Shown: one piece after another, positions 39,614 through 47,904 of the stretch
Layout of the letters: the number at the start of each line of letters is the position of its first letter
How positions within the stretch are numbered: the first letter of the stretch is position 1
DNA from: Nocardia sp. BMG111209
Lineage (GTDB): Bacteria; Actinomycetota; Actinomycetes; Mycobacteriales; Mycobacteriaceae
Reading direction: 5' to 3'
Assembly: GCF_000381925.1 (NCBI RefSeq)
Contig: NZ_KB907308.1
Span: 992,001-1,056,000, forward strand
Length of the DNA: 64,000 bases
The notes under the pieces: generated by a model
What the model was told of the DNA's origin: nothing
Databases searched by the model: none
The model's input: only the letters and a program-made list of their open reading frames with translations
Position numbers and translations under genes: made by a program

Positions 39614-40522
39614 TCAGCGCATCGGGACGCCGTACTGCTCCTTCATCAGGTCCAGATGGACCCAATTGTCGACCTCCAGTACCGGTCGCAGCGCGCGCAG
39701 CCGATCCAGTGCCGACACCACCTCGTCCAGCCGCGGTGCGTAGATCGTTCCGAGCAGATCGAACCGGCCGATGGTGGCGGCGAGGAACCGGACGCCGGGC
39801 AGTTCCGCGACCAGCGGCGACAGTCCCGACACCCGGCCGCTGGCCCGCACCCCGAATCCGACGGCCACCTCGGCGTCGCCGTGTCCGGGGGCGAACAGCG
39901 CGCCGATCCGGACGATGCCCTCGTCGATGAGGCGCAGCACCCGCATCCGCGCCGTGCCGGGGGTGGTGTCGGCCGCGGCGGCCAGTACCGCGTAGGAGGC
40001 GCGGCCGTCCTCCTGCAACCGCGCGAGCAGGCGGCGATCGAGCGCGTCCAGGGTTGCCGCAGCGACCTTCTGCGGCTGGCCGGCGTCGATCATCAGATCG
40101 GAGTAGTACAGCGTGTTGGTGTCGCGCACGCCGTCGATGCTGCGGATGCGATCCAGCGCGCCGGCCAGTTCCGCCGCGTCGCCGCAGCGGATCTCCGCGA
40201 TCAGCGGATACCGCCCGCTGATCAGCGAGACGTACGGCACCTCGGGCAGGGCCGCCACTCGCGCGGCCACCTGCCGCACCGGCTGTTCGACGCTGATCGA
40301 GACGTGGGCCAGCGCCTCCAGCCCGACGGTGGCCGGGTGCACGATGCCGACGACGCGGGTGTGCCCCGATTCCAACAGCGCGTCGAGGCGTTTGGACACC
40401 GTCGGCCGAGACACGCCGAGGCGCGCCGACAGTTCGTTGCGGCCGATCCGCCCGTCCCGGCGGAGGTGATCGAGGATGCGGGCATCCAGGTGGTGGATGC
40501 CGATCGGACCCGGGGCGGTCAT
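39614..40522 (-). CDS. Lrp/AsnC-family regulator with two HTH modules, 302 aa
   Basis: Twice the usual length. The first module is HTH ILDHLRRDGRIGRNELSARL plus VSRPTVSKRLDALLESG and a sensor half (ALAHVSISVEQP, PYVSLISGRYPLIAEI). The second starts LDALDRRLLARLQEDGRASY with TTPGTARMRVLRLIDEG and ends in a RAM sensor domain (AEVAVGFGVRASGR, LAATIGRFDLLGTIYAPR). Lrp/AsnC proteins sense amino acids and form ring-like oligomers. It is divergent from the ABC importer and catabolic genes starting at 40771 and is the obvious regulator of that cluster. ATG 40522. Confidence 0.9.
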   Translation of the reverse strand: MTAPGPIGIHHLDARILDHLRRDGRIGRNELSARLGVSRPTVSKRLDALLESGHTRVVGIVHPATVGLEALAHVSISVEQPVRQVAARVAALPEVPYVSLISGRYPLIAEIRCGDAAELAGALDRIRSIDGVRDTNTLYYSDLMIDAGQPQKVAAATLDALDRRLLARLQEDGRASYAVLAAAADTTPGTARMRVLRLIDEGIVRIGALFAPGHGDAEVAVGFGVRASGRVSGLSPLVAELPGVRFLAATIGRFDLLGTIYAPRLDEVVSALDRLRALRPVLEVDNWVHLDLMKEQYGVPMR

Positions 40523-40626
40523 CCGAACTTAACAATCGACATCCGGTCCACCCCGGTTTTACAGATCGGCAGCACGGTCGCAATCTTCCGGCTACGCAGC
40601 GCCATCGATGCGAACATCTCTTTACA

Positions 40627-40640
40627 TTTCATCGATGAAA
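40627..40640. promoter_or_regulatory. Perfect 14-bp palindrome in the control region of the catabolic cluster
   Basis: TTTCATCGATGAAA, no mismatch, A/T-rich flanks, 27 bp upstream of the -35 of the transporter promoter and 105 bp from the regulator start. Size, symmetry and A/T-richness suit Lrp/AsnC recognition. The rest of 40523-40770 is unusually AT-rich for this genome. Confidence 0.6.
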
Positions 40641-40666
40641 CCCCTTGTCCGGCAACTAATTACGAC

Positions 40667-46186: not shown

Positions 46187-46929
46187 GCCCGGAGGCGCGG
46201 CTGCGGCGGGAACTGGCGGCGGTGTACCGGCTGATCGCCCATTTCGGGATGACCGACCTCATCTTCACCCACATCTCGCTGCGGCTGCCCGGCGCGCAGC
46301 CACGCTTCCTGATCAACCCGTACGGGCTGCTGTTCGAGGAGATCACCGCCTCGAATCTGGTGATCGTCGACGCCGGCGGCCACCCGGTCGGCGACGGCGG
46401 GCAGCGGGTGAACCCGGCCGGATTCGTCATCCACTCCGCCGTGCACGCCGCCCGCGCCGATGCCCACTGCGTCCTGCACACCCACACCCAGGCCGGTTGT
46501 GCGGTGGCGGCAAGCGCCGCGGGACTGCTTCCGCTGAACCAGATCTCGATGGAGTTCTACGATCGGATCGGATACCACGACTACGAAGGCGTGGCGCTCG
46601 GCCGGGCCGAACAACAGCGGTTGATCGCCGATCTCGGCGGCCATCCCGCGCTGATCCTGCGTCACCACGGCCTGCTGACCGTGGGAAGTACTCCGGCACA
46701 AGCCTTTCTGCGCATGTTCTATCTGGAGCGGGCCTGCCGGATCCAGCTGACGGCCACCGCCGCGGGCCCGGTGACCACACCACCGCCCGAGGTCTGCGCG
46801 CGCGCCGCACACCAGCTGACCACCGGCGCGGCCCCCGGCGACGACTACGCCGACCTTGATGGTTACGAGCTCGCCTGGGCGGCCCTGCTGCGACTGCTGG
46901 ACCGCGTCGCCCCCGGCTACACGGACTAG
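46183..46929 (+). CDS. Class II aldolase/adducin-family protein, 248 aa
   Basis: Zn-dependent aldolase fold: FGMTDLIFTHISLRLP at the N-terminus, then the metal site His99-x-His101 (VLHTHTQAG) and His161/162 (LRHHGLLTVG). It keeps NPYGLLFEEITASNL, the phosphate or carboxylate loop of the family. Such enzymes cleave phosphorylated ketoses or 4-hydroxy-2-oxo acids. Position after the Rieske enzyme suggests it cleaves the hydroxylated carbon chain. ATG overlaps the Rieske stop. Confidence 0.9.
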   Translation: MSPEARLRRELAAVYRLIAHFGMTDLIFTHISLRLPGAQPRFLINPYGLLFEEITASNLVIVDAGGHPVGDGGQRVNPAGFVIHSAVHAARADAHCVLHTHTQAGCAVAASAAGLLPLNQISMEFYDRIGYHDYEGVALGRAEQQRLIADLGGHPALILRHHGLLTVGSTPAQAFLRMFYLERACRIQLTATAAGPVTTPPPEVCARAAHQLTTGAAPGDDYADLDGYELAWAALLRLLDRVAPGYTD

Positions 46930-46968
46930 CCGGACACCCAGTACCCCTCTCCCGGAAAGGATCCGCCG

Positions 46969-47904
46969 ATGTCTCCTGTCGGACCCGTCGACGCCACCCT
47001 GGTTCCCCGTTACGCGGGCCCGGCCACCTTCGCCCGGCTGCCCCGGCTGGACGAGGTCACCGCCGCCGACGTCGCCGTCGTCGGGGTGCCGTTCGACACC
47101 GGGGTCAGCTACCGGCCCGGCGCGCGGCTGGGCCCGGCACATGTGCGCGCCTCCTCGAAACTGTTGCGGCCCTACAACCCCGAGCTCGACGTCAGCCCTT
47201 TCCAGCGGTTGCAGGTCGCCGACGCCGGCGATATTCCCTGCAATCCCTTCGACATCGGTGCGGCGATCACCGAGATCGAAAGGGCCAGCGATGATCTCAC
47301 CGGGACCGGGGCCCGGCTGCTGACGCTCGGCGGGGATCACACCATCGCGCTACCGCTGTTGCGATCCGTGGCCCGCCGGCACGGACCGGTCGCCGTGGTG
47401 CACTTCGACGCCCACCTCGACACCTGGGACACGTATTTCGGCGCCGCGGTCACGCACGGCACCCCGTTCCGCCGCGCCTCCGAGGAGGGTCTCATCGACC
47501 GGGAGGCCAGTCTGCACATCGGCACTCGCGGTCCGCTCTACAGCGACCAGGACCTCGACGACGACCGCCGCCTCGGCTTCGCCACGATCACCGCGCCGCA
47601 GGTGGAGATCGACGGCGTCGCCGCGGCCGTCGACCGGATGCTGGCCCGGGTCGGCGACCGCCCGGTGTACGTCTCGGTCGACATCGACGTGCTGGACCCG
47701 GCGCACGCGCCGGGTACCGGCACTCCGGAGGCCGGTGGCCTCACCAGTCGCGAACTGCTGCACCTGCTCCGGGCGTTCCGCGCGGTGAATCTGGTGGGTG
47801 CCGACATCGTCGAGGTCGCGCCGGCCTACGACCACGCCGAGATCACCGGCATCGCCGCCGCGCACGTCGGCTACGAGCTCCTCTCCGCGATGGCCGCCGC
47901 CTGA
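46969..47904 (+). CDS. Ureohydrolase: guanidino-acid hydrolase / agmatinase family, 311 aa
   Basis: Mn-dependent hydrolase releasing urea. Metal ligands: His124 (GGDHT), Asp147, His149 and Asp151 (FDAHLDTWD), Asp238 and Asp240 (SVDIDVLDPAHAPGTG). The segment DAGDIPCNPFDI and THGTPFRRA are features of guanidinobutyrase/guanidinopropionase enzymes more than of agmatinase. So the expected substrate is a guanidino acid, giving an amino acid plus urea. GGAAAGGA precedes the ATG by ~7 bp. Last gene of the rightward cluster; the next gene is convergent, 3 bp away. Confidence 0.92.
   Translation: MSPVGPVDATLVPRYAGPATFARLPRLDEVTAADVAVVGVPFDTGVSYRPGARLGPAHVRASSKLLRPYNPELDVSPFQRLQVADAGDIPCNPFDIGAAITEIERASDDLTGTGARLLTLGGDHTIALPLLRSVARRHGPVAVVHFDAHLDTWDTYFGAAVTHGTPFRRASEEGLIDREASLHIGTRGPLYSDQDLDDDRRLGFATITAPQVEIDGVAAAVDRMLARVGDRPVYVSVDIDVLDPAHAPGTGTPEAGGLTSRELLHLLRAFRAVNLVGADIVEVAPAYDHAEITGIAAAHVGYELLSAMAAA

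Follow-up and report, generated by a model that had tools for sequence, protein, structure and literature searches.

Arginine is degraded to 4-guanidinobutyrate and γ-aminobutyrate (GABA) by the Aru-Kau-Gbu arginine transaminase pathway of Pseudomonas, and C4 acids are degraded by the Otn system (OtnC, OtnI, OtnD and OtnK). A cyanobacterial arginine oxidase/dehydrogenase route to 4-guanidinobutyrate and GABA is described in a further report (PMC2242806). Here we analyze a 64,000-nucleotide stretch of the 9.14 Mb genome of Nocardia sp. BMG111209 (contig NZ_KB907308.1, positions 992,001 to 1,056,000; the window), and in it a nine-gene locus (39614-47904) that encodes an AsnC/Lrp-type regulator, a three-gene ABC importer, a D-2-hydroxyacid dehydrogenase (HADH), a TIM-barrel protein, a Rieske oxygenase, a class II aldolase-like protein (AldII) and a ureohydrolase. 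The locus appears to share with the arginine transaminase/oxidase pathways the logic of 2-ketoarginine, 4-guanidinobutyrate, GABA and succinate, and a related locus in Nakamurella unites an AruI-family decarboxylase, an aminobutyraldehyde dehydrogenase, a ureohydrolase and a GABA transaminase. The window operon nevertheless differs from those pathways on two counts: its front end consists of the Rieske oxygenase, the TIM barrel and HADH, with none of the nine operon genes, to which that search was confined, encoding an entry enzyme of the arginine transaminase, oxidase or dehydrogenase kind, and it carries AldII where relatives carry a thiamine diphosphate (ThDP)-dependent enzyme.

We propose, at what we judge to be even odds, that the AsnC-controlled operon imports an arginine-derived compound whose α-amino group is missing or substituted and converts it with O2 to 4-guanidinobutyrate, GABA and urea. 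The ABC importer would take up the arginine derivative; the Rieske oxygenase, served by a reductase encoded elsewhere in the genome and assisted by the TIM barrel, would cleave a C-N bond oxidatively, forming 2-ketoarginine or the 2-hydroxy counterpart; HADH would interconvert the 2-oxo acid and the D-2-hydroxy acid; AldII would remove C1, most likely by Fe(II)/O2-dependent oxidative decarboxylation that yields 4-guanidinobutyrate directly; and the ureohydrolase would split the latter into GABA and urea, with GABA transaminase (GabT) and a semialdehyde dehydrogenase finishing GABA. Conservation, the fixed gene set and two replacements by unrelated enzymes come from comparison of genomes, whereas every reaction, the order of the steps and the imported compound are what we infer. 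The evidence for the lower half of the scheme is far stronger than that for the upper half. A more specific formulation of the proposal is possible but rather doubtful: a new O2-dependent route for arginine derivatives in which the Rieske oxygenase, with the TIM barrel as its obligate partner, would form 2-keto- or 2-hydroxyarginine by C-N cleavage, and AldII, as an iron oxygenase, would produce 4-guanidinobutyrate in one step, replacing a thiamine decarboxylase and an aldehyde dehydrogenase.

If correct, the proposal provides a further entry to the known guanidinobutyrate-GABA pathway and suggests a function for members of a so far unassigned, PRK07044-like class II aldolase subfamily and of a likewise unassigned TIM-barrel family. 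The TIM and Rieske genes would further provide a marker set for annotating proteins that now bear generic names ("choline monooxygenase," "aromatic ring-hydroxylating oxygenase"), and because unrelated enzymes naturally take over two of the steps, a small number of assays could address the substrate question. A preliminary description of the locus knew of no pathway with this gene set, and searches of mainly open-access papers showed none.

A conserved unit in scattered soil actinobacteria

Searching the genomes of named species with the Rieske protein as query gave 46 loci, of which we used the 23 with 56-94% identity (L032-L054), the upper end being the Nocardia aurantia counterpart at 94%. 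The 23 distant ones (L055-L077, 27-40% identity) have no TIM or ureohydrolase match and were excluded from all counts; in one of them (L069) a 46% AldII match lies close by on the opposite strand. Gene presence in each locus was judged from tblastn tables, with matches below 30-50% identity (depending on the gene) or below 15% coverage dropped. AsnC, HADH, TIM and Rieske genes occur together in all 23 loci, the TIM gene (44115-44996, + strand) always adjoins the Rieske gene (44993-46186, +), and the ABC ATPase is present in 22. All nine genes stand in identical order in 13 loci (L032-L039, L041 and L043-L046), with an extra gene inserted in L036, L038 and L046; in the last, from Millisia brevis, a PucR-type regulator gene (L046:12232-13977, - strand) separates AldII from the ureohydrolase. 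The loci are not independent samples, as L043, L044 and L045 are near-identical; L043, recorded as Kitasatospora arboriphila, nearly matches Williamsia muralis at the locus and is likely mislabelled.

In broader genome sets the unit is sparse. Among 301 genomes of the family set, the Rieske gene was found in 15 (E<=1e-60) and the TIM gene in the same 15 (E<=1e-20), with two copies of each in the window genome; among 394 genomes of the class set the Rieske gene occurs in two, the window genome included, and among 396 of the phylum set the TIM gene occurs in the window genome alone. These counts indicate that the unit is uncommon, with a patchy distribution, and that TIM and Rieske genes travel together. 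The catabolic unit is genuine, and its genes are conserved together across scattered soil actinobacteria. A half-length EPSP synthase-like gene (L036:3875-4531, -; E=2.5e-29 in a profile search against the PDB) adjoins AsnC in the same direction in 15 of the 23 loci; the nearest Nocardia loci (L032-L034) have no match to it, and it was not seen in the window.

Guanidino removal, GABA and the C1 step

The ureohydrolase gene (46969-47904, +) encodes a PF00491 protein predicted to be a guanidino acid or agmatine amidinohydrolase, in which H124, D147, H149, D151, D238 and D240 are invariant across 16 aligned rows, a fragment in L054 having been omitted. Its nearest solved relatives are guanidinobutyrase (3nio, 267 bits), proclavaminate amidinohydrolase (259 bits) and guanidinopropionase (250 bits). 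Twenty of the 23 genomes have a ureohydrolase, 14 of them in the locus and six elsewhere (L042, L047, L048, L050, L053 and L054; best copy 67-73% identity), and a genome-wide search at E<=1e-10 found none for L049, L051 and L052. Precisely these three are the only ones of the 23 loci, within which this search was made, to hold a dimethylargininase/arginine deiminase-like gene together with a hydantoinase/carbamoylase-family gene; in L049, the one scored, the former reaches 84 bits against a cut-off of 450 and the latter 281 against 204 (TIGR01879). A deiminase-like enzyme and a carbamoylase could convert a guanidino acid to a ureido acid and then to an amine. Because the alternative pair appears exactly where the ureohydrolase is absent, the guanidino group is very probably processed by the unit, which lends support to the idea of a guanidino compound advanced on first inspection of the locus.

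Genes found beside the ureohydrolase point to the fate of the carbon skeleton. Within 21 kb, the Nakamurella locus encodes the ThDP enzyme, the ureohydrolase (as agmatinase), GABA transaminase (649.7 bits, cut-off 506.65) and aminobutyraldehyde dehydrogenase (683.8 bits, cut-off 615), each of which exceeds its NCBIfam cut-off, the last two being encoded on the other strand. GABA transaminase directly follows the ureohydrolase, and is itself followed by an aldehyde dehydrogenase, in two Rhodococcus loci (L036 and L038) and in L018, L020 and L021 of the same genus group; the L038 transaminase scores 588.7 bits against the same cut-off, and the L020 dehydrogenase is best matched, below cut-off, by succinate-semialdehyde dehydrogenase (SSADH). 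The window genome carries, outside the operon, a GABA transaminase 74% identical to the Rhodococcus gene (G000:C1:2615735-2617054) with an SSADH-like gene adjoining it. Together, the transaminase after the ureohydrolase and the transaminase/SSADH-like pair of the window genome make GABA the likely product.

The C1-removing step is provisionally assigned to AldII (46183-46929, +; PF00596, above cut-off for the PRK07044 subfamily) by what takes its place. Of the 23 loci, 17 carry AldII and the remaining six (L040 and L049-L053) a ThDP enzyme, with no locus having both or neither; the one-or-other rule extends to five further family-set loci, namely L018, L020, L021, L030 and the window, each of which has AldII. 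Scores were obtained for three of the six ThDP proteins (500.8, 533.6 and 529.6), and each lies above the NCBIfam cut-off of 500 bits for 5-guanidino-2-oxopentanoate decarboxylase. Searched genome-wide, the six ThDP genomes yield at best an AldII match of 26-29% identity or none; conversely, at E<=1e-100 no ThDP match was found in 15 of the 17 AldII-locus genomes (L032 and L045 were left out), in the genome G523 or in the window genome, which thus has no AruI-family 2-ketoarginine decarboxylase at that threshold, both positive controls being recovered. That a family of 5-guanidino-2-oxopentanoate decarboxylases occupies the AldII slot in six of 23 loci points to loss of C1 rather than aldol cleavage. 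A zinc alcohol dehydrogenase is found in all six ThDP loci (a different one, 27% identical, in L040) and in none of the 17 AldII loci (E<=1e-10), a distribution that fits if an aldehyde arises only via the ThDP route; we read this as the ThDP route making an aldehyde and AldII not, as would suit an oxidative decarboxylase.

The AldII residues are compatible with such a role. H99, H101 and H162, the three putative metal histidines, are invariant in 18 aligned rows, and Gly80, again conserved in all 18, falls by spacing, 19 residues before His99, at the place of the catalytic Glu73 of FucA, whose Glu73/His92 numbering and spacing we take as given. Three histidines without this glutamate are also the arrangement of pyruvic oxime dioxygenase (POD), an Fe(II) enzyme (PMC5216522), and of CloR and NovR, which according to PMC13111500 rely on three histidines and O2 to decarboxylate an α-keto acid oxidatively twice, by way of an α-hydroxy acid. 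By sequence, AldII resembles these Fe/O2 oxidative decarboxylases in its three histidines and missing Glu73, but the solved structure nearest to it is 3ocr (210 bits), whose title says no more than class II aldolase/adducin, and adducins outscore NovR (105 bits). In view of the C1-step and guanidino-step replacements and the GABA genes, the best reading of the lower half runs from 2-keto- or 2-hydroxyarginine to 4-guanidinobutyrate and on to GABA.

The upper half and competing explanations

The Rieske protein is a predicted non-heme iron oxygenase α subunit with a quaternary-ammonium-oxygenase-like fold, in which the residues of the Rieske and 2-His-1-carboxylate centres are invariant. Its structural model is nearest to the stachydrine and carnitine oxygenases Stc2 and CntA, which suggests C-N cleavage of an N-substituted arginine. 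It differs from the stachydrine demethylase Stc2, from CntA and from the glycine betaine oxygenase GbcA in its low identity (20-23%), in a GbcA equivalog score far under the cut-off (93.6 versus 670 bits) and in its pairing with a TIM barrel, and in the alignment its bridging residue is Asp225 where CntA has Glu. Several reductases of a type suited to a Rieske oxygenase are encoded in the window genome outside the operon. The TIM barrel belongs to the IolE/sugar-epimerase fold with a conserved acid/His set; its Pfam match is below cut-off, it has no NCBIfam match, and the hits of a fold search spread over many epimerases and dehydratases that lie within about 3 Z units of one another, with no single function indicated. 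HADH (43165-44118, +; 2-Hacid_dh and 2-Hacid_dh_C) retains R229, E258 and H277 in 24 of 24 rows. As for the importer, the solved relatives of its substrate-binding lipoprotein are of the glutamine/arginine/lysine type, and the comparison yields general polar amino-acid binding proteins. An invariant ETD motif lies near the usual α-ammonium site; two alignments disagree on whether the acid there is lost or shifted by one residue, and the motif was not used as a substrate clue. Opine and rhizopine parallels were considered too and set aside; for octopine with a Rieske enzyme the literature offered one review.

Several observations weigh against the proposed route from an arginine derivative to GABA. 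NCBIfam names the ureohydrolase an agmatinase (PRK02190 and TIGR01230, both above cut-off), so that an ordinary agmatinase specificity, which the preliminary description had listed among its refuting conditions, has to be reckoned with, and its Tyr156 aligns with guanidinopropionase Tyr157 and not guanidinobutyrase Met161. (The tyrosine was rejected as proof of a 3-guanidinopropionate substrate, the Nakamurella enzyme beside the ThDP and GabT genes having the same residue.) Both SSADH calls fall below cut-off (562 and 543 versus 646 bits), and L041, titled Rhodococcus, has no GabT or reductase match in the locus. Among the six ThDP loci an aldehyde dehydrogenase is detectable only in Nakamurella, with no match in L049-L053, which weakens the aldehyde argument and leaves it resting on the alcohol dehydrogenase. 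In a Rieske tree whose long outgroup branches make its root unsafe, 76% of 200 bootstraps place the six ThDP loci together; these loci may therefore share a single origin, one change on the tree, with fewer replacement events than loci. HADH is retained beside the ThDP enzyme too, so the direction of its reaction would be ambiguous, and neither the TIM barrel nor the half-length EPSP synthase-like gene is explained by any proposed step. Finally, two loci stand outside the one-or-other rule. A second cluster in the window genome (L031, G000:C1:1325000-1344000; 9624-18999) has an AsnC gene divergent from ureohydrolase, TIM, 2-oxoglutarate-Fe oxygenase, NCS1 permease, short-chain dehydrogenase/reductase, aldo-keto reductase, deacetylase/allantoinase-like and Rieske genes on one strand, with no match for HADH, AldII, the ThDP enzyme or the ABC importer; and in the genome G523, locus L106 combines HADH, TIM and a partial Rieske match with a ureohydrolase some 6 kb away, with no AldII or ThDP match within 18 kb and a 55% AldII match on another contig. 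From these two loci it follows that the TIM/Rieske core may serve other substrates.

On another reading, the TIM-Rieske-ureohydrolase core would open or trim the ring of a cyclic guanidine or lactam, the arginine-like genes being one of several front ends, and the gene content of the second cluster is what recommends this idea; it is nonetheless very unlikely in our estimate, given that the ABC ATPase is kept in 22 of 23 loci, that the five extra genes of the second cluster are unmatched in the 23 loci (E<=1e-10) save for a 32% aldo-keto reductase in L048, and that in L098, where neither TIM nor Rieske is matched, an NCS1 permease also adjoins a ureohydrolase. The Otn-like reading proposed in the preliminary description, by which the class II aldolase would cut an oxidised guanidino acid by retro-aldol cleavage and pass a short guanidino acid to the ureohydrolase, draws on the joint occurrence of a class II aldolase fold, a TIM barrel and a dehydrogenase, as in the Otn system. 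We rejected aldol cleavage of this kind and leave it an equally low probability: Gly80 replaces the FucA glutamate, the nine genes include no OtnK-type kinase, the dehydrogenase is of a different family, AldII reaches only 26 of the 250 bits required by the Otn-type decarboxylase model (NF043034), and in six of the 23 loci its slot is filled by a family of 2-oxo-acid decarboxylases. Of the earlier reading, guanidino processing gains support and the comparison with C4-acid cleavage does not.

Somewhat less improbable, though still distinctly unlikely, is the ordinary salvage of agmatine or guanidinobutyrate beside an unrelated aromatic-acid oxygenase unit, which would agree with the agmatinase name and with the six genomes that keep the ureohydrolase outside the locus, but which sits poorly with a guanidino-removing gene set in all 23 genomes and with the gene order common to 13 loci. 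We consider it unlikely as well, if less so, that the Rieske enzyme N-demethylates a methylated arginine, at a guanidino or α nitrogen, releasing formaldehyde ahead of the usual guanidinobutyrate route. The nearest folds are indeed N-demethylating or quaternary-ammonium oxygenases, the stand-in for the ureohydrolase scores best to dimethylargininase, and the zinc alcohol dehydrogenase of L049, the one scored, is best matched by a mycothiol-dependent formaldehyde dehydrogenase (245 versus 513 bits). Both of these scores lie under their cut-offs, however, the alcohol dehydrogenase is unmatched in the 17 AldII loci, and none of the operon genes belongs to a type known for taking off a free α-amino group, as the ThDP and HADH families would require.

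Gene layout and neighbouring loci

Domain-profile matches place all nine genes where they were first drawn. The AsnC/Lrp-type regulator (39614-40522, -) is divergent from the operon and, as had been described, bears two helix-turn-helix stretches (HTH_24/HTH_AsnC, at about residues 11-52 and 157-197) with a single AsnC ligand-domain match (AsnC_trans_reg, 73-137) between them; a divergent AsnC gene precedes the binding-protein gene in syntenic loci. The importer comprises the family 3 substrate-binding lipoprotein of amino-acid type (40771-41607, +; SBP_bac_3), the permease (41612-42343, +; BPD_transp_1, with HEQRo_perm_3TM above cut-off) and the ATPase (42340-43152, +; ABC_tran). The gaps between the eight genes on the + strand are 4, -4, 12, -4, -4, -4 and 39 bases, so that starts and stops do overlap or nearly so up to 46929, and the NPFDI and HGTPFR motifs noted earlier in the ureohydrolase are present.

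The divergent intergenic region (40523-40770) holds one σ70-like site (40667-40695, +), 75 bases upstream of the binding-protein gene; as the sole such site in 39500-48300, with 0.4 expected, it is a weak candidate promoter. No terminator-like site was found in the same interval, against 2.3 expected in shuffled sequence.

Beyond the main set of loci, a counterpart of the second cluster in Nocardia alder85J (L105) matches its TIM, NCS1 and aldo-keto reductase genes in part and leaves the 2-oxoglutarate-Fe oxygenase gene unmatched, owing to decay or an assembly error. The NCS1 permease next to a ureohydrolase in L098 (L098:9953-11485, -) comes from Actinoplanes lutulentus; such units may use NCS1 permeases to transport guanidino compounds. 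The operon itself is flanked at 38122-39569 by genes for a UPF0014 membrane protein and an ABC ATPase, the latter reading downwards from about 39569, and at 47908-51402 by a gene converging on it, 3 bases past the last stop, whose 1164-residue product has Ser/Thr kinase, AAA and weak MalT-like TPR matches.

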